DNA from: Rhodobacterales bacterium HKCCSP123
Lineage (GTDB): Bacteria; Pseudomonadota; Alphaproteobacteria; Rhodobacterales; Rhodobacteraceae
Direction: 5' to 3'
NCBI GenBank assembly: GCA_015689745.1
Contig: WVSO01000031.1
Location: 1-34,573 of the forward strand
DNA: 34,573 bases
In this document: piece after piece, positions 3,655 to 34,573 of the stretch
Layout: each line of letters begins with the position of its first letter
Position numbering within the stretch: position 1 is the stretch's first letter
Made by a program: the position numbers and the translations under genes
The notes under the pieces: model-generated
Seen by the model: the letters and a program-made list of their open reading frames with translations, nothing else
Database searches by the model: none
Told to the model about the DNA's origin: nothing

Positions 3655-4916
3655 CTTGCGGCTTGCCACTTGGCGATCATCTCCTCGGTGATGAGGGTCA
3701 CGCCGCCGGGGGTGACGTGGAACCACCTGGCGTCCTCCTCCGGGTCCTCGCCCACGACGAGGCCGCGGGGGATCACCACGCCGCGGTCGATGACCACGTT
3801 CTTCAGCCGCGCGTGACGTTCGACCACGACATTCGGCAGGACGACGGCGCGCACCAGCTGCGAATAGGAATTGGTGTGGACGTTGGTGAACAGGAGCGAC
3901 TCGCGCACTTCCGTGCCCGAGATGATGCAGCCGCCCGACACCATCGAGGAGATCGCGCTGCCGCGGCGGTCGGCCTCGTCATGGATGAACTTGGCGGGCG
4001 GGACCGACTCCGAATAGGTCCAGATCGGCCAGTTGGTGTCCCACAGGTCGAGCTCCGGCGTGAAGCTCGTCAGGTCGATGTTCGCCTTCCAATAGGCGTC
4101 GACCGTGCCGACGTCGCGCCAATAGGCGGGCGCGTCCGCGGCGTGGCGCACGCAGGACGCCTCGAACCGGTGGGCCATCGCCTTGCCGCCCGCGACGATC
4201 TGCGGGATCAGGTCGCCGCCGAAATCGCGGCCCGAGTTGGGGTCTTCCGCGTCGCGGATCAGCAGGTCGCGCAGGAAGGCCCACTTGAACACGTAGATGC
4301 CCATCGAGGCGAGCGTGACATTCGGGTCCTCGGGCGTGCCGGGCGGGTCTTTCGGCTTTTCGAGGAAGCTGGTGATGCGGTCGTTGTCGTCGATCGCCAT
4401 GACGCCGAAGGCGCTGGCCTCGGCCCGCGGGACGGTGAGGCAGCCGATGGTGACGTCGGCATCGGTGTCCCGGTGCTGGCGCAGCATGACCTCGTAATCC
4501 ATCTTGTAGATGTGGTCGCCCGCCAGGATCACGACGTAATCCACGTCGTAGCTGTCGATGATGTCGATGTTCTGGAACACCGCATCGGCCGTGCCCTGGT
4601 ACCAGTGCACCTCGTCCACGCGCTGCGAGGCGGGCAGGATGTCGAGGTATTCGTTGCGCTCGGCGCGGAAGAAGTTCCAGCCGCGCTGGCAGTGGCGGAT
4701 GAGCGAATGCGCCTTGTATTGCGTGGCGATCGCCATCTTGCGGATGCCCGAGTTCAGCGCGTTGGAGAGCGCGAAATCGATGATCCGGCTCTTGCCGCCG
4801 AAATAGACGGCGGGCTTGGCGCGCTTGTCGGTGAGCTGCATCAGGCGGCTTCCGCGCCCGCCCGCCAGCACGAATGCCATGGAACGGGACACGAGCCTTT
4901 GCGATGGTCCGGCCAT
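3651..4916 (-). CDS. glgC: Glucose-1-phosphate adenylyltransferase (ADP-glucose pyrophosphorylase)
   Basis: GlgC makes ADP-glucose and pyrophosphate from ATP and glucose-1-phosphate, the committed and usually allosteric step of glycogen synthesis. The 421-residue protein has the nucleotidyltransferase loop LAGGRGSRL (17-25), WYQGTADA (105-112), [10 protein letters not shown] (132-141), AFGVM (169-173) and EKP (186-188). The C-terminal third carries the left-handed beta-helix typical of the family ([14 protein letters not shown] and following). The open frame runs back to 5138, but the stretch before [10 protein letters not shown] is low-complexity and overlaps glgB. The ATG at 4916 follows an AGGGAG ribosome site and gives the usual family length (about 420). 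The stop forms an ATGA overlap with glgA. Confidence 0.96.
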
Positions 4917-4965
4917 TGTCTTTTTGTCTCCCTCTTGGGTGCGCCGCCTCCCCGCGGCGCTTGGG

Positions 4966-7170: not shown

Positions 7171-7201
7171 GCGTTCGACGCTACAGAACCACGGTCACAG
7201 G

Positions 7202-9604
<2,403 letters not shown>

Positions 9605-16431: not shown

Positions 16432-20394
<3,963 letters not shown>

Positions 20395-20530: not shown

Positions 20531-21547
20531 TCACAAGGTCACGACCCGACCCGACCGGATGCTCTCGTCGGCCGCGATGCAGATCGCCAGCGACCGGACC
20601 GCGTCCGCAATGTGCCGCCCGAGATCCATATCCTCGGCGATGGCACGCAGCACGAAGCCCTGCTCGGCGTCGCACAGCGCCTGGTGGCCCGGTTCGTCGG
20701 GCAGGTCGATCATCTCGTCCCCGGAGGGGCGATGCACCCTGAGCCCTCCCACCTTCGTGTGCCCGTCGATGTCCGAGGAACCGGACTTGTCCGCATCCGT
20801 GATCGAGACCGCGCCATTGGGGCTGACGATATCCTTCACGAAGAACGCGGTCTCCGACATCATCGGCCCCCAGCCCGCCTCGTACCAGCCGACCGACCCG
20901 TCGGCGAAAACGACCTGCAATTGACCGTAGTTGTACATGTCGGGCGCGATCTCGTCCGACAGGCGCAGGCCGATCCCCTGCACCCGCACCGGGGCCGCAT
21001 CCGTCACCTGGCACATCACGTCGACGTAATGCACCCCGCAATCCACGATGGGCGAGGTCGTCTGCATCAGCGCCTTGTGCGTCTCCCACTCCGCGCCGCT
21101 CGACTGCTGGTTCAGGTTCATCCGGAAGACATAGGGCCCGCCCAGGCGCCGCGCCTCGGCGATCATCCGCACCCAGCTGGGGTGATGACGCAGGATATAG
21201 CCCACGACGAGCTTGCGCTTCAGCCGCACCGCCGTCTCGACCACCCGCTCGGCATCGGCCACGGTCGTGGCCAGCGGCTTTTCGACGAAGACATGGGCGC
21301 CCGCCTCCATCGCGCGGATCGCCAGGTCGGCGTGGCTGTCGGAATAGGTGGCGATCACCACGAGGTCGGGGCGCGTCCGCATCCCCTCCTCGAACCTGTC
21401 GAACCGGGGATAGGCCGAGAGCGCCCCGGGCAGGTCGCGCGGCGAGCGGTTGACCAGCCCCACGATCTCCGCCCCCTCCGCGGCATGATGGGCCAGCGCA
21501 TGGCTTTGCCCCATGTTGCCCAGTCCCACGATCAGCACCCGTGTCAT
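20531..21547 (-). CDS. Gfo/Idh/MocA-family NAD(P)-dependent sugar dehydrogenase
   Basis: This 338-residue protein has the two-domain Gfo/Idh/MocA fold. The N-terminal Rossmann domain has GLGNMG (8-13), and the EKP motif is at 89-91 (HVFVEKPLAT). The active-site D-x-x-x-H is Asp169 and His173 in IVDCGVHYVD. Members oxidise or reduce a ring hydroxyl of sugars, cyclitols or their derivatives in the cytoplasm. It is divergent from the SIS-domain gene at 21654, with a 106-bp shared upstream region, which suggests joint control. The substrate is unknown. It is not part of the larger operon but is of the same broad family as three of its proteins. Confidence 0.88.
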   Translation of the reverse strand: MTRVLIVGLGNMGQSHALAHHAAEGAEIVGLVNRSPRDLPGALSAYPRFDRFEEGMRTRPDLVVIATYSDSHADLAIRAMEAGAHVFVEKPLATTVADAERVVETAVRLKRKLVVGYILRHHPSWVRMIAEARRLGGPYVFRMNLNQQSSGAEWETHKALMQTTSPIVDCGVHYVDVMCQVTDAAPVRVQGIGLRLSDEIAPDMYNYGQLQVVFADGSVGWYEAGWGPMMSETAFFVKDIVSPNGAVSITDADKSGSSDIDGHTKVGGLRVHRPSGDEMIDLPDEPGHQALCDAEQGFVLRAIAEDMDLGRHIADAVRSLAICIAADESIRSGRVVTL

Positions 21548-21653: not shown

Positions 21654-22676
21654 ATGACCGACACGCAGATGCGCCGCGAGATCGCCGAGATCCCCGAGGC
21701 GGTGGCCCGCCTGCTCGACCTCGGGGCAGGTCCGGTGGCGGCCGCGGCCGGGGCGATGCGCGCGGCCGATCCCGCGCTGGTCGTGACCGTCGCCCGCGGG
21801 TCCTCCGATCACGCCTGCACCTATCTCAAATACGCCTCGGAACTGCTGCTCGGCCTTCCCGTCGCCTCGGTCGGGCCATCGGTCGCCTCGGTCTACGGGG
21901 CGAAGCTGCGCCTTGGCGGCGCGGTCTGCCTGTCGGTCTCGCAATCGGGGGCAAGCCCCGACATCGTCGCCATGACCCGCGGCGCGCGGGCGGGGGGCGC
22001 GCTGACCGTGGCGCTCACGAATGACGCAGGCTCGCGCCTCGCCGCCGAGGCCGAGCATGTCATCGACATCTGCGCCGGCCCCGAGCGCTCGGTGGCGGCG
22101 ACCAAGACCTTCGTGACCTCGGCGCTCGCCGGCCTCTGGCTGCTGGCCGAGGTGAAGGCCGATGCGGCGCTTCTGGCGGCCATCCGCGACCTGCCGGCCG
22201 CGCTCGAGGCTGCGCGCGCGGTGGACTGGTCCGCGCTCGACGCAGCGCTCGGGGCCGGGTCGGTCTACACCCTCGGCCGGGGTCCGGCCTGGGCGATCTC
22301 GAACGAGGCCGCGCTCAAGTTCAAGGAGGTCGCCCGCGTCCACGCCGAAAGCTACTCCTCCGCCGAGGTGCTGCACGGGCCCGTCTCCATCGTCGAGCGC
22401 GGCTTCCCGGTGCTCGCCTTCGCCGCGGGCGACGCCGCCGAGACGCCGCTCGCCGAGGTGGCCGACGCGCTGGCGGAAAAGGGGGCCGCGGTCTTCGCCA
22501 CGACCGACCGCGTCCGCGCGGCCCATGCGCTTCCCGTGGTCCGCACGGGCCACCCCCTGACGGACCCCCTGTCGCTGATCGTCAGCTTCTACGCCATGAT
22601 CGAGCGGCTGGCGGTGGCCCGCGGTCTCGACCCCGACATGCCGCGGCACCTGAAGAAGGTGACCGAGACGACCTGA
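21654..22676 (+). CDS. SIS-domain aminosugar-phosphate deaminase/isomerase (NagB-II/AgaS/GlmS-C type)
   Basis: This 340-residue protein has two SIS domains, like the isomerase half of GlmS without the glutaminase half. VARGSSDHA (47-55) and SVSQSGASPDIV hold the sugar phosphate. EAALKFKEVARVHAE and EVLHGPVSIVE are GlmS-like active-site segments, and the C-terminus MPRHLKKVTET is the usual tail. Such proteins (NagB-II) convert glucosamine-6-phosphate to fructose-6-phosphate plus ammonia; relatives act on fructosamine-6-phosphate or galactosamine-6-phosphate. A GAGGGAGGA ribosome site supports the ATG. No N-acetylglucosamine deacetylase or PTS gene is nearby, so the substrate may be unusual. 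It is divergent from the dehydrogenase at 20531. Confidence 0.83.
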   Translation: MTDTQMRREIAEIPEAVARLLDLGAGPVAAAAGAMRAADPALVVTVARGSSDHACTYLKYASELLLGLPVASVGPSVASVYGAKLRLGGAVCLSVSQSGASPDIVAMTRGARAGGALTVALTNDAGSRLAAEAEHVIDICAGPERSVAATKTFVTSALAGLWLLAEVKADAALLAAIRDLPAALEAARAVDWSALDAALGAGSVYTLGRGPAWAISNEAALKFKEVARVHAESYSSAEVLHGPVSIVERGFPVLAFAAGDAAETPLAEVADALAEKGAAVFATTDRVRAAHALPVVRTGHPLTDPLSLIVSFYAMIERLAVARGLDPDMPRHLKKVTETT

Positions 22677-23055: not shown

Positions 23056-24180
23056 TCAGGACAACAGCCGCCGCGCCGCGCCGACCGTCACCTCGCGGCC
23101 CGTGATCCGGCTTTCGACAGCGGCGAAGGCCAGCGCGAGGGACCTCAGGTTCTCCCGCGCCCCGTTCGAGGGCTCGCGCCCCTCCTCGATGGCCGAGAGC
23201 AACTCGCCCATGGTGCCCGCGAAGCCGTCGTTGAACCATTGCCCCTCCAGATCCGGGCGCGCGATGCCCGCGGGCGTGGTCAGCACCACCCGTTGCGCGC
23301 CCAGGTCCGGCCCGTCCGACACGAGGCTGCCCGCCGTCCCGCCGATGAAGCTCGTGTCGCGCGGGCCATGCGCCACGCCGCCGTCGAAGACGAGGCTCGC
23401 CTGCCCGCCCTCGCAGCGCACCAGCGCCTGCGCCAGCAGCGGCACCTTGTTGGCCTGGCCCGCCGCGCGGGCGGCGCTGGCGAAGACGCTTTGCACCCGC
23501 TCGCCCATGATCGAGGCCACGAAGTCGAACCAGTGCACCCCGAAATCGTACAGCACCAGATCCTCGATCTCGTCGAAGGGGGTGCCCGCGGTCCAGCCGT
23601 GGGTCCAGTGGATCGCGACATGGGCCGAGATCGGCTCTCCGATCAGACCGCTGCGCACCGCCTCGCGCATCCAGGCCTTGTGGGGCGCCCAGCGGCCGTT
23701 CTGGTTGACGGCAAGCTTCACGCCCTTGTCCTCCGCCAGCTTCACCAGGTCCTCGCCCAGGTCGAGGTCGGTGACGAAGGGCTTCTGGCTCAGCACATGC
23801 TTGCCCGCCATCAGCGCCGCGCGGATGATCTCGACCCGGTGTTCGGGGTGCAGCGTCACGTCGATGACGTCGATGTCGGGGTCGCCCAGCATCGCGCGCC
23901 AGTCCTCCTCGATCCGCGCGCCGGGGCAATACTCGGCGGCTTTCGCCTCGGCCTTGGCGCGGGTGCGGTTCCAGAGCGCGGCCACCTCCCATCCCGCAGC
24001 CCGGTAGGCGTCGAGGTGACTGCCCGAGATGCCGCCGGTCCCGATCATCCCGATCCTCGGCCGGTAAGCCTTCGGCATCGGCGGGCGATAGGGCAGGTCG
24101 GGCGCCGCGATCTCGGGCAGATCGGCGGATTTCAGGGCATAGGTGTCCTTGTCGCCCGCATCCTTCGTCGTCTCGCTCAT
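23056..24180 (-). CDS. Gfo/Idh/MocA-family dehydrogenase with N-terminal extension
   Basis: This 374-residue sugar or cyclitol dehydrogenase is the last gene of the nine-gene operon. About 40 residues (MSETTKDAGDKDTYALKSAD onward) precede the Rossmann motif GTGGISGSH (47-55), longer than in the other family members here. The EKP position reads QKP (132-134), a common variant. The catalytic D-x-x-x-H is present in LYDFGVHWFDF. An AIHWTHGWT segment lies in the substrate domain. Its ATG overlaps the stop of the preceding family member (ATGA), so the two are made together. They could work on successive steps, or as a pair, on the same imported compound. The substrate is not known. Confidence 0.87.
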   Translation of the reverse strand: MSETTKDAGDKDTYALKSADLPEIAAPDLPYRPPMPKAYRPRIGMIGTGGISGSHLDAYRAAGWEVAALWNRTRAKAEAKAAEYCPGARIEEDWRAMLGDPDIDVIDVTLHPEHRVEIIRAALMAGKHVLSQKPFVTDLDLGEDLVKLAEDKGVKLAVNQNGRWAPHKAWMREAVRSGLIGEPISAHVAIHWTHGWTAGTPFDEIEDLVLYDFGVHWFDFVASIMGERVQSVFASAARAAGQANKVPLLAQALVRCEGGQASLVFDGGVAHGPRDTSFIGGTAGSLVSDGPDLGAQRVVLTTPAGIARPDLEGQWFNDGFAGTMGELLSAIEEGREPSNGARENLRSLALAFAAVESRITGREVTVGAARRLLS

Positions 24181-25253
24181 GGGACCAGCTCCAGCGTGCG
24201 TTTCCGAGCGGCCGAGAGCGCCGCGGTGTCCACGATGCGCTGCGCCGTCAGGCAGAGCGCGGGGTCGAGCGGGCCGCCCACGGGTTCATCCCGCGACAGG
24301 CACCCGAGGACATACTCGATCGCGTTCCGCTCCCCCTCGGGCAGGGGATCGACCGGGATCTCGTGCCGTTCGGGGCGCGCCCGCGTCTGGACGGTGACAT
24401 GGCGCGCGTAGTCGGGGCTGGCGATGGTCCCGTCCGTGCCGACGAAGGTGAAGCCGCAGGTGGGTTGCGGCTGGTGCGTCCAGGGGTCGGTGAAGGTGCC
24501 CCAGCGCGTCTCCATCTTCGACAGGCCGCGGGCGTAGCGGCAGACGGCGATGGCGTGCTGGTCGACCTCGATCCCCGGTGTCTCGTCGACCGTGCAGGTC
24601 ACCTCGAGCGGCGCCTCGCCGCCCATGAACCAGGTGCCGAGCGTGGCCCCATAGCCCATGTAATCCAGGAGCGACCCGCCCCCCGTGGCGCGCTTGTACC
24701 ACCAGCTGCCGGGCTTCTGGCGCTCGACCTCTTCCGGGCTGACCTCGACCTTGTCGGCCAGGTGGTAGAGCGGCCCGCGGTTGCCGTCGTGGAAATGCAC
24801 CTCGCGCAGCTCGCCGATAAGCCCCTCGTCGATCAGGCGCTTGGCGGTGACATGGCTTTCGACCCAGCGCAGCGGCCAGTTGATCGCCATCTGCCTGCCG
24901 GTCCCCGCCATCGCCGCCATCATCCGCCGCGCATCGGCCGCCGAGGCGGCGAAGGGCTTCTCGACGAAGACATGGACCCCGTGCGGCGCCAGCCGCTCGA
25001 CGTAATCGGCGTGATCCGCCGTCGCCGCGCAAAGGATCGCCATGTCGTAGGGCCCCGCCGCCATGCAGGCGTCGAAATCGGTGAAGTAGCGCTCGGCGGG
25101 CACGTCGAACTTGCCCGCGACGGCCTGCATCTTCCCGAGGTCGGGATCGTAGAGGCCCGCGATCTCGGCCTCGGGATGATCGTGCACCAGCCGCAGCAAA
25201 TCGCCCATGTGCATGTGGTCGAAACTGATGCCAACGATGCGGAATTTCGCCAT
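24177..25253 (-). CDS. Divergent Gfo/Idh/MocA-family protein lacking canonical cofactor and catalytic motifs
   Basis: This 358-residue protein keeps the family outline, with VHVFVEKPFA and EKP at 98-100. Two hallmarks differ. The nucleotide loop reads GISFDHMHMGD (8-18) instead of GxGxxG, and the active-site D-x-x-x-H reads Asp187-Tyr-Met-Gly-Tyr191, so tyrosine replaces the histidine. WWYKRATGGGS precedes it. It may be an oxidoreductase with changed chemistry, or a lyase or isomerase that uses the fold. The open frame runs back to 25757, but the ATG at 25253 has an AAGGAGG ribosome site and the family N-terminus. The stop overlaps the 24180 start (ATGA). Confidence 0.82.
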   Translation of the reverse strand: MAKFRIVGISFDHMHMGDLLRLVHDHPEAEIAGLYDPDLGKMQAVAGKFDVPAERYFTDFDACMAAGPYDMAILCAATADHADYVERLAPHGVHVFVEKPFAASAADARRMMAAMAGTGRQMAINWPLRWVESHVTAKRLIDEGLIGELREVHFHDGNRGPLYHLADKVEVSPEEVERQKPGSWWYKRATGGGSLLDYMGYGATLGTWFMGGEAPLEVTCTVDETPGIEVDQHAIAVCRYARGLSKMETRWGTFTDPWTHQPQPTCGFTFVGTDGTIASPDYARHVTVQTRARPERHEIPVDPLPEGERNAIEYVLGCLSRDEPVGGPLDPALCLTAQRIVDTAALSAARKRTLELVP

Positions 25254-25267
25254 CGTCTCCCCCTCCT

Positions 25268-26275
25268 TCAGCGTGTGCCGGTGATCCGGACGTAAAGGGC
25301 CGTGACCGCCAGGATGATCAGCCCGAAAAGCGCGGTGCGCGCCCCCTCGGGCATCTGCAGAAGCGTCAGCATCGTGTCGAGCACCCGCAGGATCAGCGCC
25401 CCCACGATCGCGCCGGCGAAGCTGCCGCGCCCCCCGAAGATCGAGGTGCCCCCGATCACCGCCGCCGCCACCGAGGGCAGCAGAAGCGGGTTGGCAAGGC
25501 TGAGGGACGGCGCCCGGATCATGCCGAGATAGAGCAGCCCCGTCAGCGCCGCGATCAGCCCCGAGAGCGCGTAGAGCGCCATCAGCACCTGCCAGCTCTT
25601 CACGCCCGAAAGCTTCGCCGCGGTCTCGTTCGACCCGAGCGCGAAGAGGTTTCGGCCGAAGCCCGTGTAGCGCATCAGCCAGAGGATGAAGGCGGCGAAG
25701 GGCAGGAACAGGAACAGCCCGTTCGGCATCCCCATCGTCCGCCCGGTGCCCAGCCATTCGAGGAAGGCGGGGATCTCGGACCCGGCGTTGATGACGTAGC
25801 GCTGGTAGACCTGCAGGCAGCCCGTGGCGATCAACCCCGTGCCCAGCGTCATGATCAGCGGATGCACCCGCACGATGCCGACGCCGAAGCCGTTGACCAG
25901 CCCCACCACGAGCCCGCAGGCAAGCGCCATCATCACCGCCTGGGGCACGCCCCAGATCGAACTGAGCGTCGCGCAGACGAAGGCCGAGACCGTCGCCACC
26001 ACGCCCACCGACAGGTCGATGCCCGCCGTGAGCATGGTCAGCACCTGGCAGGCCGCCAGCATCGCCAGCGGGATGGCGAACTTGATCAGGTTGCCGAGCC
26101 AGAAGCTCGAGATCAGCCCGTCCCGCCCGATCCTGAAGGGCATCACGATGCCCGGCCGCATCACCTCGAGCACCGCGATCAGCAGGAGCAGGAAGGCGAT
26201 GAGCGGGATCATCGGGTTGTCGCGCAACACGCGCCCGAAGCGGACCAGCGGGGTGTCGGTGTCGGCCATGCTCAT
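25268..26275 (-). CDS. Sugar ABC transporter permease, RbsC type (second)
   Basis: This 335-residue inner-membrane permease of the BPD_transp_2 family has about eight to ten hydrophobic helices. The conserved AGIDLSVG segment marks the ribose/galactose (CUT2) permease group, and GRNLFALGSNETAAKLSGV is the cytoplasmic loop that contacts the ATPase. VIGGTSIFGGRGSFAGAIVG is also typical. The start MSMADTDTPL at 26275 overlaps the stop of the upstream permease (ATGA). It probably pairs with that permease as a heterodimer carrying the solute delivered by the binding protein at 28770. Confidence 0.92.
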   Translation of the reverse strand: MSMADTDTPLVRFGRVLRDNPMIPLIAFLLLLIAVLEVMRPGIVMPFRIGRDGLISSFWLGNLIKFAIPLAMLAACQVLTMLTAGIDLSVGVVATVSAFVCATLSSIWGVPQAVMMALACGLVVGLVNGFGVGIVRVHPLIMTLGTGLIATGCLQVYQRYVINAGSEIPAFLEWLGTGRTMGMPNGLFLFLPFAAFILWLMRYTGFGRNLFALGSNETAAKLSGVKSWQVLMALYALSGLIAALTGLLYLGMIRAPSLSLANPLLLPSVAAAVIGGTSIFGGRGSFAGAIVGALILRVLDTMLTLLQMPEGARTALFGLIILAVTALYVRITGTR

Positions 26276-27213
26276 GATCGTCGCCCCCTCAGCGTCAGCG
26301 CCGTTCCCAGCATGACGACGCCGACCATGATGACCCCCTCGACGATGGTGGTCACGTTCGGATCGACCGCCATGAGGGTCAGGATGGTGCGGATGATCCG
26401 CAGGATGAAGACCGCGATGATCGGCCCGAGCAGCCCGCCCTTGCCGCCGCCCAGCACCACGCCGCCCAGCACCACGGCCGCGACCGAGGCCATGAGGTAG
26501 GGACCCGGCACCGGTTCCCCGATCCCCGTCAGCGCGGCAAGGCTCAGGCCGCCCATCGCGCAGAAGAGGCCGCAGATCCCGTAGGCCGCGACCTTGGTCC
26601 AGCCCACCGGCACGCCCGAGCGGAAGGCCGCCATCTCGTCCGAGCCGACCGCGTAGATCGACAGGCCCAGTTTCGAGCGCCGGATCGGCACCCAGACCAG
26701 CGCGATGCAGATCGCCATGATGACGAAAGGTTTGGGCAGCAGGTCGATGCCCACGAAGCCGCGCGTCGCCCGCTCCAGCCAGTCGGCGGTGTTCCCGCCC
26801 GGGCTTTCGAGGATCAGGAGCGCCACCCCCTCCCACACGAAGAGCATGGCGAGCGTGACCACGATGTCGGGCACCCGCGTCAGCACGATCAGCGCGCCGT
26901 TGATCAGCCCCATGGCCAGCCCCACGCCCAGCACGATCATCAGCGCGGGCACACCGGCCATCCGTTCCATCAGCACCGCCGCCGTCACCGCGCAGACCGC
27001 CATCATGGAGGCGACGCTCAGGTCGATGCCGCCGACGATGACCACCACGGCCATCCCCGCCGTGGCGAAGGCGAAGGGCAGGGCCGCGCGGGCGAGGCTT
27101 TCGAGGCCCGAGGCGCCGAAGCCCGGCTGGATCGCCTTGGTGATCCCGAGCAGCACCGCCAGAAGCACGGCCAGCCCGATCACCCAGGCGTGTTTGCGAA
27201 GGAAAGCGCTCAC
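26272..27213 (-). CDS. Sugar ABC transporter permease, RbsC type (first)
   Basis: This 313-residue multi-helix inner-membrane protein is of the same CUT2 permease family, with VGGIDLSVASMMAVCA and SIYAVGSDEMAAFRSGVPV (ATPase-contact loop). The C-terminal VLGGVVLGGGKGGLLGPI replaces the usual GGTSI..G.G motif. Two different permeases in one CUT2 operon imply a heterodimeric channel. Both ends overlap neighbours by 4 bp: the ATPase stop at its start, the second permease ATG at its stop. The substrate is set mainly by the binding protein. Confidence 0.92.
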   Translation of the reverse strand: MSAFLRKHAWVIGLAVLLAVLLGITKAIQPGFGASGLESLARAALPFAFATAGMAVVVIVGGIDLSVASMMAVCAVTAAVLMERMAGVPALMIVLGVGLAMGLINGALIVLTRVPDIVVTLAMLFVWEGVALLILESPGGNTADWLERATRGFVGIDLLPKPFVIMAICIALVWVPIRRSKLGLSIYAVGSDEMAAFRSGVPVGWTKVAAYGICGLFCAMGGLSLAALTGIGEPVPGPYLMASVAAVVLGGVVLGGGKGGLLGPIIAVFILRIIRTILTLMAVDPNVTTIVEGVIMVGVVMLGTALTLRGRRS

Positions 27214-28694
27214 GCCGCGCCCTCCTGCGCGGTCAGGCCGTAGGCCGCGCGCATGAGCGTCGCCTCGTCCGCCGCGCCGGCCTCGATCACGTCGACGACG
27301 CGGCCGCCGAAGATCACCACGGCCCGGTCGCAGGCCAGCGGCACCTCGGCCAGTTCCGAGGTGTAGAACAGCACCGCCGCCCCCTGTTCGGCCAGTTCGC
27401 GCACCAGCGGGTAGATCTGCCGCTTGGTGCGCACGTCGATCCCCCGCGTGGGGTCGAACAGCAGGAGCGTCTCGACCCCGGTGGCGAGCCAGCGCCCGAT
27501 GGTCACCTTCTGCTGGTTGCCGCCCGAGAGGCGCTGCACCTCGCCCTGGGCGCGGGTGTCGATCTGCAGTTTCTCGATGGCATGGGCGACCCGCGCCCGT
27601 TCGTGGCGCAGCCGCAAGGGGCCCCAGTCGCGCATCCGGGCCGAGAAGGGCAGGGCGATGTTCTCGCGCACCGACCGCTGCGCGAGCAGCGCCTCGGCGC
27701 GGTTGCCCGGCACGTAGGAGAGGCCCGCGGCGATGGCATCGGCGGGATGGGCGAAGCTCGCCGCTTGCCCGTCGACCGAGACCGTGCCGCCGGTGGGTTT
27801 CCGGAAGCCCGCCAGCACGTCGAAAAGCTCGTCCTGGCCCTGTCCCTCGAGCGCCACGACGCCAAGCACCTCGCCCGCATGCAGGTCGAAGGAGACATCC
27901 TGAAGCTTCGGCGCGGCGGCCAGCCCCCGGACCGCCAGGCGCGGCGTGCCGCGGCGCACCGCCTGAAGCGTGGCCGCGTCGCGCTGGCCGAGGTCGATGG
28001 TCTCGCCCAGCATCAGCTCGACCGCGCGGTCCTCGACGCCCGGCTCGATGGGCAACTCGCCCACCGTGCGCCCGTCGCGCAGCACGGTCGCGCGGTCGCA
28101 GAGGCGCGAGATCTCGGTGAAGCGGTGCGAGACGTAGATCACGCCCAGCCCCGCATCGGCCTTGGCGCGCACGGTCTCGAGCACGCGCTCGACAAGGTCG
28201 GTCGGCAGGGCCGCCGTCATCTCGTCCAGAAGCAGCACGTCCGGTTCGGCGGCCAGCGCGCGGGCGAGGTCGAGGATCCGCAGCGTCGCCAGCGGCAGGT
28301 CGCCGATCAGGTCGGTCAGGCGCAGGCCCTTGATCCCCAGCGCCTCGACCCAGTGGCGGAAAGGGTCCACGGGCGTATCGCCCAGCCGCAGGTTGTCCAT
28401 GACGTCAAGGTCCGGGATCAGCGACGGCTCCTGGTAGACCGGCACGAGGCCGGAGCGCCGCGCGCCACGCGGGCTGCCCACGCGCGCCTCCTGTCCCCGG
28501 ATCAGCACCCGGCCCCGGTCGGGCCTGAGCGCGCCGGTCAGGATCTTGACGAAGGTCGATTTTCCGGCCCCGTTCGCCCCCATCAGCGCCACGACCTCGC
28601 CCCGCGCCACGGTCAGGCGCGCATCGGTCAGCGCCTTCACGGCGCCAAAGCTTTTCGCGACGCCGCTGGCGTCCAGAAGGGGCGTGTCTGTCAT
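27210..28694 (-). CDS. Sugar ABC transporter ATP-binding protein, RbsA/MglA type
   Basis: This 494-residue protein with two fused nucleotide-binding domains powers the importer at the inner face of the membrane. Domain 1 has Walker A GANGAGKST (39-47) and Walker B LLLDEMTAAL (Asp157-Glu158), but its signature reads LPLATLRI instead of LSxGQ. Domain 2 has the degenerate Walker A usual for this family (ALEGQGQDEL) and an intact RLSGGNQQK signature. The best composite site would combine domain-1 Walker A with the domain-2 signature. The ribosome site is weak. A strong hairpin lies between this gene and the binding-protein gene. The stop overlaps the permease start (ATGA). Confidence 0.93.
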   Translation of the reverse strand: MTDTPLLDASGVAKSFGAVKALTDARLTVARGEVVALMGANGAGKSTFVKILTGALRPDRGRVLIRGQEARVGSPRGARRSGLVPVYQEPSLIPDLDVMDNLRLGDTPVDPFRHWVEALGIKGLRLTDLIGDLPLATLRILDLARALAAEPDVLLLDEMTAALPTDLVERVLETVRAKADAGLGVIYVSHRFTEISRLCDRATVLRDGRTVGELPIEPGVEDRAVELMLGETIDLGQRDAATLQAVRRGTPRLAVRGLAAAPKLQDVSFDLHAGEVLGVVALEGQGQDELFDVLAGFRKPTGGTVSVDGQAASFAHPADAIAAGLSYVPGNRAEALLAQRSVRENIALPFSARMRDWGPLRLRHERARVAHAIEKLQIDTRAQGEVQRLSGGNQQKVTIGRWLATGVETLLLFDPTRGIDVRTKRQIYPLVRELAEQGAAVLFYTSELAEVPLACDRAVVIFGGRVVDVIEAGAADEATLMRAAYGLTAQEGAA

Positions 28695-28727
28695 CTTTGC
28701 TCGGGTCTCGGGCCTGCCTGTCGATAT

Positions 28728-28761
28728 GCTCCGGCCCCCGGGGAGAGACGGGGGCCGGAGC
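28728..28761 (-). terminator. Intra-operon hairpin between binding protein and ATPase genes
   Basis: A perfect 13-bp stem, GCTCCGGCCCCCG (28728-28740) with its complement (28749-28761), has an 8-nt loop. It starts 9 bp after the binding-protein stop. Stable hairpins here usually protect the upstream mRNA or partly stop transcription, so the binding protein is made in excess over the membrane parts. No T-run follows, so attenuation or mRNA stabilisation is likelier than full termination. Confidence 0.7.
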
Positions 28762-28769
28762 GGATGGGA

Positions 28770-29807
28770 TCAGCCCTCGCCGGGTCCTTCACAGGCGATG
28801 ATCTGCTCCATCGTGTAGTCGGTCCAGCCGGGGATCGAGACCGAGACCGGCCATTCCGGGTCGAGGTTCGGGTTCTGCGCCGCGGCCAGCGTCGCGCGGC
28901 CTTCCTCGGTGGTGTTCTCCCACAGGACGGGATCGACCAGCACCACGTTGCTGTCGGGTGCCTCGCCGTTCAGGATGTCGACGGCCAGCGCGATGCCCGC
29001 GCCGCCGACCGATCCGGGGTTGGTCACCGCCGCGCCCTGCAGCCCCTCCACGCTGGAGAGCTGCCCGACGAAGCCCGCGTTGTCGGCGCCCACGATCGGC
29101 ACCAGCGGCGCACCGCTTTCGACGAAGGCATCGACGATCACGTTGTCGATGCCGGAGGTCCAGACCCCGTCGAAGGGGATGCCGGTGGCGAGGAAGTCGA
29201 ACATCTGCTGCTTGCCCTGGTCCTGCTGCCAGCCGGTGAAGACCTCGTGCACGACCTCGATGCCGGGGAATTCCGCCAGCGCGCGGCGGAAGCCGTTGTC
29301 GCGGTCGGTATCGGCCGAGACGCCCGCGATGCCGCGCATGTAGACGACATCCCCCTCGCCGCCGAGCTGCTCGAAGAGCCAGCGCGCGCCGAGATAGGCG
29401 TATTCCTCCTGGTTGTTGGACAGGATGTAGGCACCCTCCGCCGTGACGCCCGCGTCCACGGCCACCACGACGATGCCCGCCGCCATCGCCGCCTCGAGCG
29501 CCGAGTTCAGCGCGTCGGGGTTGGAGGGGTTGAGGACGATGGCGTCCACGCCCGCCTCGATCAGGTTGTTGATGTCCTCGAGCTGGCCCGCGCTGTCGGT
29601 GTTGCGATGCGCCACGATCAGGCCCGTGACATCGCCCTCGACCAGCGCCTGTGCCCGCATGGCGCAGATCATCTCCTCGCGCCAGCCATTGCCCTGCACC
29701 GTGTTCGACACGCCGATCGTGTAGCCGCCGTGGGCATCGGCGAAGGCGGCCGGTGCGAAGCTGACCGAAACCGCAAGAGCGGCAAGTCCCGTTAACACTT
29801 TCTTCAT
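28770..29807 (-). CDS. Periplasmic sugar-binding protein, RbsB family
   Basis: This 345-residue solute receptor is of the CUT2 ABC importer group. A signal peptide is clear: MKK, a hydrophobic core, then AFA cleaved after residue 23. The mature protein starts DAHGGYTIGVSNTVQGNGWR. The two-lobed fold shows IEAGVDAIVLNPSNPDALN (lobe 1), VDAGVTAEGAYILSNNQEE and GADNAGFVGQL. There is no lipobox, so it is free in the periplasm. A GGGAGGA ribosome site supports the ATG. The ligand is unknown; the family binds ribose, galactose, inositol, autoinducer-2 and many others. The operon context favours a sugar, glycoside or cyclitol. Confidence 0.93.
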   Translation of the reverse strand: MKKVLTGLAALAVSVSFAPAAFADAHGGYTIGVSNTVQGNGWREEMICAMRAQALVEGDVTGLIVAHRNTDSAGQLEDINNLIEAGVDAIVLNPSNPDALNSALEAAMAAGIVVVAVDAGVTAEGAYILSNNQEEYAYLGARWLFEQLGGEGDVVYMRGIAGVSADTDRDNGFRRALAEFPGIEVVHEVFTGWQQDQGKQQMFDFLATGIPFDGVWTSGIDNVIVDAFVESGAPLVPIVGADNAGFVGQLSSVEGLQGAAVTNPGSVGGAGIALAVDILNGEAPDSNVVLVDPVLWENTTEEGRATLAAAQNPNLDPEWPVSVSIPGWTDYTMEQIIACEGPGEG

Positions 29808-29863
29808 CTGGTAGTCCTCCCTGGTAAGGTTTCCTAAAGGTTCTCGGGGCGCGCGCCGCCCTT

Positions 29864-30778
29864 CTACTTGATGAACGGGGACAGCACGTCGCGGGCCAGC
29901 AGGAAGCCCCGCTTGACCTTCTCGTCCGTCCCTTCGAACAGCCGGTCCTCGTGCTCGATGATGACCGGCCCGTCATAGCCCGCGCGGTAGAGACCGCTGA
30001 AGAAGTCGCTCCAGTCCACCTCGCCGAGCCCGCAGAGGCGGGGGATCTGCCAGCCCATTCCGGCCGACAGGATGCCGCGCTCGTAAAGCCCGTCGCGGTC
30101 GATCATCAGGTCCTTGGCGTGCACATGCGCCATGTGCGGCCCGAATTCCTTGATGAAGCGGGGCATGTCGATGAATTGCAGGACAAGGTGGGAGGGGTCG
30201 AAGTTCATCCCCACCGCGTCGCCCCATTCCTCGAAGATCCTCCGCCAGATGCGCGGGCTGTAGGCGATGTTGTGACCGCCCGGCCACTCGTCGTAGCTGA
30301 AGATCATCGGGCAGTTCTCGAAGCAGAGCCGGACGCCCGCGTCCTGCGCATGCTTGACGATGGGCGCGAAGATGCCTTGCGCGCGGGCCCAGTTCTGATC
30401 GACGTTCAAATTCCGGTCGCCGCCGATGAAGGTGTTGACCACGCCCACCCCCATGACGCCCGCCGCCGTGATGACCTTCTTCAGATGCCCGATCACCGCG
30501 TCGCGGTGGTCGGCGTCGGCGTGGAGCGGGTTGGGGTAATAGCCCAGTCCCGAGATCCCGATCCCCCGCTCGGCGAGGCCGCCGATGATCTCCTGCCCGC
30601 GGGCCGCCGTCAGTCCCTCCACGTCGATGTGGCTGGTGCCCGCATAGCGCCGCTTCTCGCCGCCCGAGGCGGGCCAGCAGGCGACCTCGAAGGCGGAGAA
30701 CCCGTTCGCGCCCGCCCAGTCGGCCACCTCCAGCAGGGGCGTGTCCTCGAAGGGGGCCGTCAGCAATCCAAGTTTCAT
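29864..30778 (-). CDS. AP-endonuclease-2-fold sugar isomerase/epimerase (or keto-sugar lyase)
   Basis: This 304-residue TIM-barrel protein belongs to the sugar phosphate isomerase/epimerase superfamily (xylose isomerase-like). Likely metal ligands are Glu154 (CFENCPM), Asp194 and His197 (FDPSHLVLQ), His220 (HVHAKD) and Glu275 (IIEHED). Relatives include IolE, hydroxypyruvate isomerase, E. coli YcjR and enzymes that eliminate or epimerise 3-keto-glycosides. Proteins of this fold next to Gfo/Idh/MocA dehydrogenases often act on the keto product. The frame extends to 30979, but MKLGLLTAPF at 30778 follows a GGGAGGACAGGG ribosome site. It lies 13 bp after the upstream dehydrogenase and 56 bp before the binding protein. 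Confidence 0.85.
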   Translation of the reverse strand: MKLGLLTAPFEDTPLLEVADWAGANGFSAFEVACWPASGGEKRRYAGTSHIDVEGLTAARGQEIIGGLAERGIGISGLGYYPNPLHADADHRDAVIGHLKKVITAAGVMGVGVVNTFIGGDRNLNVDQNWARAQGIFAPIVKHAQDAGVRLCFENCPMIFSYDEWPGGHNIAYSPRIWRRIFEEWGDAVGMNFDPSHLVLQFIDMPRFIKEFGPHMAHVHAKDLMIDRDGLYERGILSAGMGWQIPRLCGLGEVDWSDFFSGLYRAGYDGPVIIEHEDRLFEGTDEKVKRGFLLARDVLSPFIK

Positions 30779-30791
30779 CCCTGTCCTCCCC

Positions 30792-31946
30792 TCAGACCTC
30801 GTCCAGCCGCACCCAACGCCCCTCGCGCGCCGAGCGCAGGACCGCGTCGCACAGCTGCATCTCGTAATGGCCGTCCTCGAAGCTGGCCCATGTGCTGCCG
30901 TCCTGCCGCCCGCCCGCCGCGACATCGGCATAGACTGCCCGGAAGAAGTTGAAGAAGCTGTCGGCGAAACCCTCGACATGGCCGGGCGGCAGGCTTGCGG
31001 CGGCGACGCCCCTGGCGTTCATCAGCGTGAAGTCGCGCATCAAGGTCTCGTTGGCGCGGTCGCGGTGCCCGACGAAAAGGTGATCCGGCGTCTCGCTGTC
31101 CCAGGCGAGGCTCGCGCCCGCGCCCGCGATGTCCCATTGCAGCGAATTCTTGCGCCCCATGTTGACCTGGCTCGTGCTCATCACCCCGCGCGCCCCGTTG
31201 GGGTAGCGCAGAAGGATCATCGCGGCGTCGTCGGTGTCGATCGGCACGGTTTCGGTTGCGCCCGCCGCGCTCGAGAAGGTCTCGACCGGGCCGACGGGCC
31301 TTGCACGCTCGGGCAGGAATGTCGCCAGCTCCGCCATCACGGCCTCGGCCCTGAGCCCGGTGATGAAGCTCGTGAGGTCGATCCAGTGTGTCCCGATATC
31401 GCCCACCGAGCGCAGCGCGCCGCCCATCCCGGATTGCAGCCGCCAGTTCCAGTCGGTCGGCTTGGCCAGCCAATCCTGGTGGTAATGCCCCGAGACGAAG
31501 CGGATATCCCCGATCTCTCCCGCCTCGACCATGCCGCGGGCCTGCTGGTTCAGCGGGTAGAAACGGATGTTGTAGCAGACCGCCGCGACCTTGCCGGAGG
31601 CGCGGGCGATCCCGACCATCTCGGCGGATTGGGCGCTGGTCATGGCCAGCGGCTTTTCGCAGATCACGTGCTTGCCCGCGGCGAGGATCGCCTTGACCTG
31701 CGGGTAATGCGCATGGTTGGGCGAGGTGACATGGACCACGTCAACGCTGTCATCGGCCAGCAGGTCGTCCAGGCTGGCATAGGCATGGGGCACGCCGATG
31801 GCGGCTGCACGCTCGGCCCCTCGCTCGGGCGAGGAGCCGAGCACGCCGCGCAGTTGCACCCCGAGCCGTCGCAGCGCCTGCACATGCACCGTGCCGATGA
31901 AGCCGGTGCCGATCACGGCTGCGCCGATGCTTGCGACCTCCGTCAT
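30792..31946 (-). CDS. Gfo/Idh/MocA-family dehydrogenase (canonical)
   Basis: This 384-residue oxidoreductase is the second gene of the operon. The Rossmann motif is GTGFIG (13-18), EKP is at 97-99 (HVICEKPLAM), and Asp183 and His187 (VGDIGTHWID) form the active-site pair, so full dehydrogenase activity is expected. HYHQDWLAKPTDWNWRL is a long aromatic substrate-loop segment. It is 12 bp after the SDR gene and 13 bp before the isomerase, with a GGAGG ribosome site. Of the three family members in the operon it is the best candidate for the first oxidation of the imported compound. The position of oxidation (C3 in several related enzymes) is inference. Confidence 0.89.
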   Translation of the reverse strand: MTEVASIGAAVIGTGFIGTVHVQALRRLGVQLRGVLGSSPERGAERAAAIGVPHAYASLDDLLADDSVDVVHVTSPNHAHYPQVKAILAAGKHVICEKPLAMTSAQSAEMVGIARASGKVAAVCYNIRFYPLNQQARGMVEAGEIGDIRFVSGHYHQDWLAKPTDWNWRLQSGMGGALRSVGDIGTHWIDLTSFITGLRAEAVMAELATFLPERARPVGPVETFSSAAGATETVPIDTDDAAMILLRYPNGARGVMSTSQVNMGRKNSLQWDIAGAGASLAWDSETPDHLFVGHRDRANETLMRDFTLMNARGVAAASLPPGHVEGFADSFFNFFRAVYADVAAGGRQDGSTWASFEDGHYEMQLCDAVLRSAREGRWVRLDEV

Positions 31947-31958
31947 GCGCTCCCTCCG

Positions 31959-32687
31959 TCAGACAACCGAGTATCCCCCGTCGACGGGCAGGCAGGTGCC
32001 CGTCATGAACCCCGCCGCGTCCGAGGCGAGGAAAAGCGCCGCCCCCGCGATGTCGCCGGGCTGGCCCCAGCGGCCCATGGGCGTGCGCGCCTCGACGGCG
32101 GCGGTGAAGGCCGGGTCCTGCCGCGCGCGGGCCGATTGCTCGGTCACGATGAAGCCCGGCGCGATGGCGTTGACGCGGATGCCGTCGCCCGCCCAGGCGA
32201 TGGCCAGCGACTTGGTCAGTTGCTCCACGCCCGCCTTGGACGCGCCATAGGCCGGGTTCCGCGGGCTGCCGAACCGGGCGTACATCGAGGCGATGTTGAT
32301 CACGCTTCCCTTCGCCGCCTTCAGTGCCGGGTGCAGCGCCTCGGCGCAGCGGAAGCTGCCGGTCAGGTTGACGTCGAGGACATGGGCGAAGAACTCCGGC
32401 GCCATCTCCTCGCCGCGCCGGGTGATGGCGGCGCAGTTGACGAGGACATGCACCCTGGAATGGGCGGCGGCGAAGCTGCGGACGGCCCCGGTATCGGTCA
32501 CGTCGAGACGGGCATAGGCGAAGCGCGCGGCATCTTCGGGGGCGGGGGCATCCTCGACGCCGGTGATGACGACCTCGGCGCCCGCATCGGCGAAGGCGCG
32601 GGCGATGGCCGCACCGATGCCGCCGCGGCTGGCGCCGATCACCAGCACATGCGCGCCGGTGAAGTCGAAGGCGACCCCTGCGCTCAT
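31959..32687 (-). CDS. Short-chain dehydrogenase/reductase (SDR)
   Basis: This 242-residue classical SDR is the first gene of the nine-gene operon. The cofactor loop is GASRGGIG (18-25), with NCAA replacing the usual NNAG/NAAG. Catalytic residues are Asn107, Ser134 (NIASMYA), Tyr147 and Lys151 (YGASK). The C-terminus GTCLPVDGGYSVV is standard. Such enzymes oxidise or reduce sugar, polyol or keto-acid hydroxyls. The frame continues far upstream, but the ATG at 32687 gives a proper family start; a GTG three codons upstream is a possible alternative. The operator pair lies 75-130 bp upstream, so this is the promoter-proximal gene. Confidence 0.9.
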   Translation of the reverse strand: MSAGVAFDFTGAHVLVIGASRGGIGAAIARAFADAGAEVVITGVEDAPAPEDAARFAYARLDVTDTGAVRSFAAAHSRVHVLVNCAAITRRGEEMAPEFFAHVLDVNLTGSFRCAEALHPALKAAKGSVINIASMYARFGSPRNPAYGASKAGVEQLTKSLAIAWAGDGIRVNAIAPGFIVTEQSARARQDPAFTAAVEARTPMGRWGQPGDIAGAALFLASDAAGFMTGTCLPVDGGYSVV

Positions 32688-32761: not shown

Positions 32762-32775
32762 TGTAATCGTTTACA
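32762..32775. promoter_or_regulatory. LacI-family operator O1, TGTAATCGTTTACA
   Basis: This is an interrupted-perfect dyad (six of seven half-site pairs match) with a central CG, typical of LacI-family operators. It lies in the 192-bp region between the SDR-led operon (-) and the lacI gene (+). It is the site nearer the operon start (75 bp away). Confidence 0.75.
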
Positions 32776-32803: not shown

Positions 32804-32817
32804 TGAAATCGATTACA
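32804..32817. promoter_or_regulatory. LacI-family operator O2, TGAAATCGATTACA
   Basis: This near-perfect dyad has the same half-site (TGTAATC) as the operator at 32762-32775. The centres are 42 bp apart, four helical turns, so two repressor dimers would sit on the same DNA face. It is 62 bp before the lacI start, so autoregulation of lacI is likely. Confidence 0.75.
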
Positions 32818-32879: not shown

Positions 32880-33908
32880 ATGCGGAAACAGGCCCAGAAA
32901 ACCGCGACCATCCAGGATGTCGCCCGCGCCGCCCGTGTCTCGACGGCGACGGTCAGCCGGGCGCTGTCGGCGCCGGGCAAGGTTTCGGAGACGACGCGCG
33001 AGGCGGTGATGGACGCGGTCCGGGCGACCGGCTACCGGGTCAACCAGGCGGCGCGCAACCTTCGGATGCAGCGCGCGGGCGCGGTGCTGGTGCTGGTGCC
33101 GAACCTTGGAAAACCCTTCTACTCCGGCATTCTCGCAGGCATCTCCGAGGGGTTCGCGGGGTCCGACTATGCCGTCCTGATCACCGATACCGAGACCGAT
33201 CCGCTCAGCGACGGGGCGCTGGCGGGCTATTTCCTCGACGGGCGCATCGATGGCGCGATCTCGCTCGACGGAGGGTTGCCCCGGAGCGCGCTGGCGCAGT
33301 GCGCGGCGCAGGGGGTGGGCGACCGGATCGTGTTCCTCTGCGAATGGGTGGAAGGGGCCGAGTTCCCGGTGATCGCGGCCGACAACGTGCAGGGCGCGCG
33401 GCTCGCGATCCGGCACCTGCACGGGCTCGGCCATCGCAGGATCGCCCATGTCACCGGGCCTGAGGGCAACGTGCTGACGGCGGCGCGGCGCGCGGGGATG
33501 CTGGACGAACGCGCGCGCCTCGGCCTGCCCGCGCGGGAGGAGTGGATCATCCGCGGCGATTTCTCGCTCGAGTCCGGGCACGAGGCGGCGGCGCGCATCC
33601 TGGCCATGTCCGAGCGGCCCACGGCGGTCTTCTGCTCGGCCGACATGGTGGCCTTCGGACTGATCGCGGGGCTGAGGGCCGGGGGGCTTGACGTGCCGCG
33701 CGACATCTCGGTCGTGGGCTTCGACGACATCGAGATGTCGGAATATTACGTGCCCGCTCTGACCACGATCCGGCAGGATCGCCAGCGCCTTGGCCGGCGC
33801 GCGTCGGAGGTGCTGCTCGCCCGGCTGTCCGGCGGGGCGCGGCCCGGCCCCGAGCCGCCGATCCCGGTCGAGATCGTGCTGCGCGCCTCGACTGCGCCCC
33901 CGCGCTAG
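32880..33908 (+). CDS. LacI-family transcriptional repressor
   Basis: This 342-residue regulator has an N-terminal helix-turn-helix (ATIQDVARAARVSTATVSRAL, about 9-29) and hinge helix (VNQAARNLRM, 54-63). A periplasmic-binding-protein-like effector domain follows (GAVLVLVPNLGKPFYSGI, later VVGFDDIEMSEYYVPALTTI). It most likely represses the divergent SDR-transporter operon through the two nearby operators and is released by the imported sugar or a derivative. The ATG at 32880 starts at the usual HTH position; the GGAGG upstream is 14 nt away, a little far. A TTG eight codons earlier is possible but unsupported. The stop codon overlaps that of the convergent SDR. Confidence 0.92.
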   Translation: MRKQAQKTATIQDVARAARVSTATVSRALSAPGKVSETTREAVMDAVRATGYRVNQAARNLRMQRAGAVLVLVPNLGKPFYSGILAGISEGFAGSDYAVLITDTETDPLSDGALAGYFLDGRIDGAISLDGGLPRSALAQCAAQGVGDRIVFLCEWVEGAEFPVIAADNVQGARLAIRHLHGLGHRRIAHVTGPEGNVLTAARRAGMLDERARLGLPAREEWIIRGDFSLESGHEAAARILAMSERPTAVFCSADMVAFGLIAGLRAGGLDVPRDISVVGFDDIEMSEYYVPALTTIRQDRQRLGRRASEVLLARLSGGARPGPEPPIPVEIVLRASTAPPR

Positions 33909-34573
33909 CATGGCGCCCCCGTCACTGCCTGTTCCAGGTCCAGCGACACGCCCGTCATCGGGGCCGAGGCGTCCGACAGAAGCCAGACCGCCTGCCGCGC
34001 CGCATCCTCGGCCGAGACGAAGCGGCCGATGGGCCGCCCGGCGGCCTGCGCGTCCATCCATCCCGGCCCCTTGCCCAGCGTCACCTCGTGCAGGTGCCGC
34101 TCGGTTTCGGTATCGACCCAGCCGAGGTTGATCCCGTTCACCCGGATGCGGTCGCGCAGATGGGCGTTGGCCGCGTTCGCGGTCAGCACCTGCAGCGCGG
34201 CCTTGGTCGCGGAATAGACGGTGAGGTCGGGCGCCCCGCAATGGGCGTTCATCGACTGGATGTTGACGATGCTGCCCGGCGCGGCCCGCGCCCTCATGTC
34301 CGCGATCGCGCCCGCCATCAGGAAGAAGGGCGCGCGGGCGTTGACCGAGAACATCCGGTTCCAGAGCGCGACATCGGCGTCGCCGAAGCTGCCGCGGGTG
34401 GTCAGGCCCGCGGCATTGACCAGCCCGTCGATCCGCCCGAACCGCGCCAGCGCGGCCCCGGTCACCGCCACGGGTCCCTCGGGCGTGGCGAGATCGGCCG
34501 CCACGGTTTCGACCGGGCAGGGCCAGTCGCCCGGAACCGGGTCGCGGTCGGCCAGCACCAGCGCCGCGGCCCC
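33905..34573 (-). CDS. Short-chain dehydrogenase/reductase, N-terminus outside window
   Basis: The visible 222 residues run in one frame to the right edge, and the TGxxxGxG cofactor loop is missing, so the true start lies beyond the window. Visible motifs are VNAAG, Asn in FSVNARAPF, Ser in VNIQSMNAH, and the catalytic YSATK. The ending MTGVSLDLEQAVTGAPC is less canonical than DGG. A GTG at 34558 could be read as a start but would remove the Rossmann strand, and the codons before it (GAALVLAD) are typical SDR. It converges on lacI and the two stops overlap in the shared CTAG. It probably belongs to the same sugar-utilisation locus. Confidence 0.88.
   Translation of the reverse strand, partial: GAAALVLADRDPVPGDWPCPVETVAADLATPEGPVAVTGAALARFGRIDGLVNAAGLTTRGSFGDADVALWNRMFSVNARAPFFLMAGAIADMRARAAPGSIVNIQSMNAHCGAPDLTVYSATKAALQVLTANAANAHLRDRIRVNGINLGWVDTETERHLHEVTLGKGPGWMDAQAAGRPIGRFVSAEDAARQAVWLLSDASAPMTGVSLDLEQAVTGAPC

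Follow-up and report, generated by a model that had tools for sequence, protein, structure and literature searches.

A conserved nine-gene import and redox operon in Rhodobacteraceae as a candidate non-hydrolytic 3-keto sugar pathway

Which compound is processed by an operon that joins a sugar-type importer to four oxidoreductases and an isomerase-fold enzyme, with no kinase or aldolase among its genes? The question is raised by a nine-gene operon on contig WVSO01000031.1 of Rhodobacterales bacterium HKCCSP123 (assembly GCA_015689745.1); the window analysed here is the complete contig of 34573 bases. The evidence observed directly comprises gene content, conservation, operator-like sites, relatedness and co-occurrence, and the reading that we tentatively favour is a non-hydrolytic 3-keto route that would act on a capped glycoside or an anhydro-sugar and give a common hexose. 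The component families are known and the chemistry has precedents, and the combination fits no pathway definition that could be tested; literature searches returned no description of this gene combination. The operon runs on the minus strand from 32687 to 23056 and consists of the following genes, listed in the direction of transcription:

31959..32687, minus strand, SDR1, a short-chain dehydrogenase and the operon's first gene (PF13561, 208.9 bits)
30792..31946, minus strand, GFO1, a Gfo/Idh/MocA dehydrogenase (LevoglcsnDh profile; PDB 4H3V and 6A3F; tree)
29864..30778, minus strand, the barrel, a xylose-isomerase-type, AtHYD-like TIM barrel (PF01261)
28770..29807, minus strand, CUT2 substrate-binding protein (PF13407, 175.8 bits; best PDB match 4PE6)
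27210..28694, minus strand, CUT2 ATPase with two ABC domains (NCBIfam and Pfam)
26272..27213, minus strand, CUT2 permease 1 (PF02653)
25268..26275, minus strand, CUT2 permease 2 (PF02653)
24177..25253, minus strand, GFO2, a divergent Gfo/Idh/MocA protein (profiles, structure match, sequence)
23056..24180, minus strand, GFO3, a Gfo/Idh/MocA protein and the pair partner of GFO2 (profiles)

The open frames were verified at these coordinates and in this order. Consecutive genes are separated by 12, 13, 56, 75, -4, -4, 14 and -4 bases, and with gaps of -4 to 75 bases the nine genes are spaced as in one operon. Pfam assigns every product to the family claimed for it, namely one short-chain dehydrogenase, three Gfo/Idh/MocA proteins, one PF01261 barrel and a complete CUT2 importer made up of binding protein, double-domain ATPase and two permeases. 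This confirms the nine genes, order and families given in the original prediction, and the same holds for its claim that kinase, aldolase and iolB/C/D are absent, as Pfam finds none of these among the nine operon genes. The prediction that the set matches no characterised pathway exactly also stands: no equivalog cut-off is reached among the NCBIfam matches listed for the nine proteins, and the tree described below agrees.

The conservation of the operon is far beyond chance. The comparison of gene order that had been proposed was run on 80 relative loci obtained from a GFO2 scan of genome contigs, mostly Rhodobacteraceae by title with Rhizobiales toward the lower end, and a gene was scored as present at 50% identity or above (L, G and C numbers below are our labels for loci, genomes and contigs). 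All nine genes are found in 44 of the 80 loci, with order and strand also kept in 42; several contigs are short, and of the 64 loci with enough contig to hold the full set, 43 carry all nine genes. Counted singly, GFO2 occurs in 80 loci, permease 2 in 73, permease 1 and the ATPase in 71 each, the binding protein in 69, GFO3 in 67, the barrel in 62, GFO1 in 58 and SDR1 in 50. GFO2 is present in 24 of the 292 genomes of an order-level sample, the window genome counted, and was not found in the two sampled congeners.

The argument for 3-keto chemistry centres on GFO1 and the barrel. The best NCBIfam model of GFO1 is LevoglcsnDh (NF052479, the LgdA model), matched near full length at 176.9 bits against a cut-off of 650; the same model gives 36.5 bits on GFO2, 53.5 on GFO3 and 43.5 on GFO4, a fourth family member downstream of the operon. 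A quick tree of 57 Gfo proteins was built with levoglucosan dehydrogenase, scyllo-inositol dehydrogenase, YcjS and Gfo genes of iol loci as references, leaving out DgpA and LgdC, which the original prediction had also named. In this tree, GFO1 falls within the superclade of levoglucosan and scyllo-inositol dehydrogenases (Shimodaira–Hasegawa-like approximate likelihood-ratio support, SH-aLRT, 99) and outside the subclade that holds both (97), on a branch of its own that contains relatives from Chloroflexota and from genome G599. GFO2, GFO3 and GFO4 each form a separate lineage. No Gfo protein of the locus joins a characterised branch included in the tree, and the outcome against which the original prediction had staked itself, a grouping of all members with a characterised pathway, was not observed. 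We propose that GFO1 is a 3-dehydrogenase/reductase.

The barrel is nearest to 2ZDS and to AtHYD, a 2-hydroxy-3-keto-glucal hydratase, both by sequence and by predicted structure. The structural alignment with AtHYD gives 24% identity, and the DPSH and HxKD motifs are common to the barrel and AtHYD-type proteins. In Mesorhizobium sp. LHD-90 (L134), an AtHYD orthologue, compared directly with AtHYD at 516 bits, occupies the slot of the barrel. We propose that the barrel is a hydratase, or an eliminase/hydratase, of a 3-keto sugar; 3-keto chemistry has been published for levoglucosan and flavonoid glucosides, as two reports describe (PMC7676230, PMC10628242). A comparable unit is the glycoside operon of A. 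tumefaciens (GlycDH, the eliminase AtOGE, the hydratase AtHYD and a Gfo reductase), in which an AtHYD-related PF01261 barrel and Gfo oxidoreductases also lie together; it differs from the present operon, which has one barrel, three Gfo proteins with short-chain dehydrogenases, its own CUT2 importer and, by Pfam, no GlycDH-like gene among the nine. The E. coli Ycj guloside route, put forward in the original prediction as a similar relative, likewise combines an importer, a Gfo dehydrogenase and a barrel. However, this likeness does not extend to the proteins, as YcjR matches the barrel with a best E value of 0.73 and YcjS branches elsewhere in the tree; Ycj also has two phosphorylases and a dehydrogenase, the latter of the zinc type. 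As a side observation, AtHYD-type genes lie in or near three GFO2 loci, at L134:15742-16800 (Mesorhizobium), L119:18543-19607 (Rhizobium vallis) and L127:1690-2736 (an alphaproteobacterial metagenome-assembled genome), the label of the latter two resting on clustering with the L134 gene.

GFO1-barrel and GFO2-GFO3 are separable modules, and the set splits outside Rhodobacteraceae. On a Chloroflexota plasmid, GFO1 and the barrel stand beside a ROK kinase (227.7 bits with the glucokinase-family model, whose cut-off is 260.35), and in G599 they are found with a major facilitator superfamily permease and LacI, a glucokinase lying 4-5 kb away (276.2 bits, cut-off 225.45). Two further contexts pair the barrel with other Gfo genes: in Niallia a ROK glucokinase is nearby (320.2 bits, above cut-off), and in E. 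raffinosus the ROK gene is immediately adjacent (247.9 bits, slightly below cut-off) and adjoins a gene annotated DUF6379, a domain of C-glycoside lyases. The original proposal that the substrate is opened by oxidation rather than hydrolysis thus gains inferential support from the nearness of the barrel to AtHYD, from the slot in L134 and from the glucokinase-type genes near two distant GFO1-barrel pairs.

The neighbourhood of interest extends beyond 23056-32687 to a regulator, two palindromes and a second short-chain dehydrogenase upstream, and to GFO4 downstream:

32880..33908, plus strand, LacI-family regulator, divergent from the operon (profiles)
33905..34573, minus strand, SDR2, a second short-chain dehydrogenase truncated by the contig end (PRK06198, 257.7 bits, cut-off 240)
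32762..32775, no strand, operator-like palindrome TGTAATCGTTTACA (pattern search with up to 2 mismatches)
32804..32817, no strand, operator-like palindrome TGAAATCGATTACA (pattern search with up to 2 mismatches)
20531..21547, minus strand, GFO4, a fourth Gfo/Idh/MocA protein, downstream of the operon and of uncertain membership

The original prediction had missed SDR2, the regulator, the separability of the two modules and the link to mocDE-type genes in relatives described below. Among the 80 loci, SDR2 is present in 43, LacI in 21 and GFO4 in 20. With up to 2 mismatches, the shared upstream region of LacI and SDR1 contains 4 strand-wise palindrome matches against a mean of 0.01 in shuffles; of the 21 loci with both LacI and SDR1, 17 have at least one palindrome in the intervening region, and palindrome pairs precede SDR1 in five loci with another divergent gene (L054, L055, L056, L058 and L116). 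By profile, SDR1 and SDR2 are generic short-chain dehydrogenases: the best NCBIfam model of SDR1 is PRK07231 at 185.9 bits, below the cut-off of 215, and SDR2, which the contig end interrupts about 30 codons past its start, alone exceeds a cut-off. GFO1, GFO3 and GFO4 retain the Lys and DxxxH pattern in their sequences, while GFO2 has DxxxY in place of DxxxH, as glucose-fructose oxidoreductase does in the alignment. GFO4 directly follows GFO3 in some relatives and lies within an amino-sugar locus in Ruegeria TM1040, for which reason its membership in the operon is uncertain. The gene adjoining GFO4 in the window (21654-22676, plus strand) encodes a SIS-domain protein, with NagB-II (glucosamine-6-phosphate deaminase) as its top NCBIfam model at 274.4 bits, cut-off 430.

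The second module has contexts of its own. An oxygenase module adjoins GFO2-GFO3 in the absence of the remaining genes at L133 and L137 (both Aminobacter), at L053 (G042) and at L124, for which only 5 kb of upstream sequence were covered. Pseudaminobacter soli and five other genomes keep the barrel and the importer together with SDR2 and a mannitol-dehydrogenase-family gene, and have a divergent GFO1-like gene with them. An adjacent GFO2-GFO3 pair (49% and 52% identity, respectively) is also present on a plasmid of the haloarchaeon Halomontanus rarus (L034:14995-17248), near GH88, DeoC, ribokinase and ribose-pyranase genes, which suggests transfer between domains.

In the relatives, the oxygenase module lies either upstream of SDR2 or in the interval that separates permease 2 from GFO2. 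Its membrane protein belongs to the fatty-acid-desaturase family (mocD-type; the L115 copy gives 144.1 bits with PF00487, and histidine boxes are visible in its sequence), and it is accompanied by a MocE-family Rieske ferredoxin (157.6 bits, cut-off 136.15), a PanB-like protein and sometimes a ferredoxin reductase. At least one of the desaturase, Rieske and PanB genes occurs in 34 of the 80 loci. Across whole genomes, a desaturase-type gene is found in 21 of 24 operon-carrying genomes compared with 3 of 36 non-carriers; 13 of the 21 carriers have it no farther than 20 kb from GFO2, the other 8 at another place in the genome. Among 30 loci with SDR2 and a window-type LacI, one without room upstream was excluded, and a mocD-, mocE- or panB-type gene lies directly upstream of SDR2 in 21 of the remaining 29 (16 of 22 after removal of seven contig repeats). 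On a plasmid of A. tumefaciens HAMBI 105 (L148:10810-17305), genes for LacI, desaturase-type, MocE-type, ferredoxin reductase, PanB-like, PurU and FolD proteins are consecutive, a row suggesting that formaldehyde is made and then passed to folate; the PanB paralogue may serve one-carbon transfer here, not pantothenate synthesis. A further plasmid, pACMV1 of Acidiphilium multivorum (L147:11977-22027), combines the same kinds of parts in another way, four barrel and three Gfo genes coming after desaturase-type, MocE-type and reductase genes.

Based on these contexts, we propose the following hypothetical mechanism, in which all the reactions are inferred, as are the hexose product and the methylation of the substrate: (i) the CUT2 ABC system would import a sugar-like compound; (ii) GFO1 would oxidise the imported glycoside or anhydro-sugar at C3 and might also catalyse the closing reduction of 3-keto-glucose; (iii) the AtHYD-like barrel would hydrate the 3-keto intermediate, or first eliminate and then hydrate; (iv) the common hexose formed would enter ordinary metabolism with no dedicated kinase in the operon; (v) GFO2-GFO3 and the two short-chain dehydrogenases would act as a second redox module on the other part of the molecule; and (vi) in many relatives, a MocDE-type diiron oxygenase and its ferredoxin would oxidatively remove a methyl ether. 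In nature, the substrate probably carries a methyl-ether cap, since the second module is coupled to the MocDE-type oxygenase and ferredoxin in many relatives.

The same link leads to the main rival explanation, in which an O-methyl inositol (pinitol, ononitol or a rhizopine-like compound) would be imported and demethylated by the MocDE-type system, Gfo proteins and short-chain dehydrogenases would reset the stereochemistry, the barrel would act as an inosose isomerase or dehydratase, and the product would pass to an inositol pathway encoded elsewhere. We regard this route as a serious possibility, if a somewhat improbable one. MocDEF belongs to rhizopine catabolism according to two reports (PMC10107442, PMC3538637), and a third describes induction of mocDEF homologues of R. 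mesoamericanum by a root exudate in which pinitol has the highest concentration of all components (PMC5789663). The relatives of the operon are linked to MocD-like membrane proteins and MocE-family ferredoxins, the components that they have in common with rhizopine catabolism (mocCABRDEF). Locus L154 (108-14202; G152, of the window's family) looks like a complete inositol locus: it encodes IolD (885.6 bits), IolE (371.4 bits) and an IolC-aldolase fusion (693.8 bits), all above cut-off, together with two Gfo genes and a CUT2-type importer. At its end lie PanB-like, MocE-type and desaturase-type genes, and it is likely an O-methyl inositol catabolic locus. A relative of SDR2 with 46% identity adjoins iolD in L155, and iolD above cut-off is enriched in operon genomes (21 of 24 vs 23 of 36, Fisher p 0.039). 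The window genome encodes inositol genes of its own, outside the window (iolD 806.7 bits on C147, iolC 303.8 bits).

Against the cyclitol route, three operon genomes lack iolD above cut-off, and two of these (G050, G244) carry the entire operon. Inositol genes were also sought in 103 relative loci (the 80-locus set and 23 more, some from shared genomes). At E 1e-20, IolB, IolC and IolE are found in none of them and IolD gives two 26% matches, the IolB query and one of two IolE queries being themselves below their own cut-offs and query IolB_own12 having turned out to be an aldolase; at E 1e-5, the IolE queries match the AtHYD-type genes of three loci with at most 54 bits, and IolC gives one 48-bit match. 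While iol catabolism shares the Gfo family and barrel folds with the operon, no iolB/C/D/E lies beside it, GFO1-4 miss the iolG model (TIGR04380) and the barrel misses the iolE model (TIGR04379). The binding protein reaches the cut-off of none of the 11 NCBIfam models that it matched and gives 20.4 bits against 420 on the rhizopine-binding MocB model (NF052284); in contrast to the rhizopine system, LacI also replaces MocR, and the window genome has no mocDE at the thresholds used. The barrel is closer to AtHYD than to IolE or IolI, and glucokinase-type genes lie near distant GFO1-barrel pairs.

Several observations weigh against the glycoside or anhydro-sugar route that we favour. The LevoglcsnDh model gives 286.1 bits on a Gfo gene of inositol locus L154, a score higher than that of GFO1, so the hit of GFO1 cannot separate a glycoside from a cyclitol; moreover, the sister branch of GFO1 holds GFO1-like genes of Phyllobacteriaceae and a Gfo gene from the inositol locus (L167) of the window genome itself. 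Tree support for the barrel is too weak for placement, and the PF01261 enzyme is single here vs two in the B. smithii and A. tumefaciens systems; LgdB1 alone is found in 126 of 265 loci (PMC10066097). The top match to the glucokinase model in the window genome scores 155.3 bits, below the cut-off of 225.45, and in two of the six distant barrel contexts opened (A. rubi and R. etli) no kinase is listed within 10 kb, in plasmid gene tables that are incomplete. As for the oxygenase, desaturase-type genes occur in inositol loci too; the window genome gives no match to desaturase-type proteins at E 1e-60 or to PanB-type proteins at E 1e-20, and its single match to the MocE model (55 bits, below cut-off) lies in a 431-residue frame on another contig; and two further operon genomes likewise lack a desaturase-type gene. 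The contig stops inside SDR2, so an assembly gap may account for this absence, though that is unproven. Exact palindromes are confined to the LacI-SDR1 region, none lying within 400 bases upstream of any oxygenase gene, and shared control of operon and oxygenase is therefore unsupported.

A more specific form of the glycoside reading, which we consider doubtful, is that the operon is half of an undescribed route for O-methylated glycosides, in which a MocDE-type diiron oxygenase would release the methyl group as formaldehyde, a PanB-like protein would pass this carbon to folate (with FolD and PurU on one plasmid), GFO2-GFO3 and the short-chain dehydrogenases would rework the demethylated part, and GFO1-barrel would release glucose without a glycosidase. 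Such a route would occur in both Rhodobacteraceae and rhizobia, and its GFO2-GFO3 pair is found in a haloarchaeon as well. If the proposed chemistry is true, a gene set widespread in these bacteria would constitute a non-hydrolytic sugar pathway invisible to glycosidase-based annotation, and the methyl-ether link would open to genetic study the bacterial use of methylated sugars or cyclitols, which plants and algae make. The locus is a compact test system, as operator-like sites, regulator, binding protein and enzymes form one small unit, and carriers include Ruegeria and Roseicyclus.

A rare polyol or ketose route, with dehydrogenases exchanging alditols and ketoses and the barrel acting as a tagatose/psicose-type 3-epimerase, is unlikely: no ketose epimerase is found among the sequence matches of the barrel, AtHYD and 2ZDS rank above epimerases in the structure comparison, and the link to the oxygenase would be left unexplained. 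Least of all do we expect the levoglucosan pathway itself, with GFO1 as LgdA and the barrel as an LgdB-type enzyme, because GFO1, although its best NCBIfam model is LevoglcsnDh, its superclade is that of LgdA and LacI, binding protein, ATPase and two permeases adjoin as in the B. smithii lgd locus, falls far below the equivalog cut-off and outside the clade in which levoglucosan dehydrogenase groups with 4H3V, 4GQA and scyllo-inositol dehydrogenase, and because the locus has one barrel rather than two and the additional GFO2-GFO3 and short-chain dehydrogenases.

Elsewhere in the window, translations read by eye give positions 167-9604 (minus strand) the look of a glycogen cluster in the order glgX, glgA, glgC, glgB, glgP, and place a gene for an OxyR-like LysR regulator divergent from a catalase-peroxidase gene at 17146-20394.

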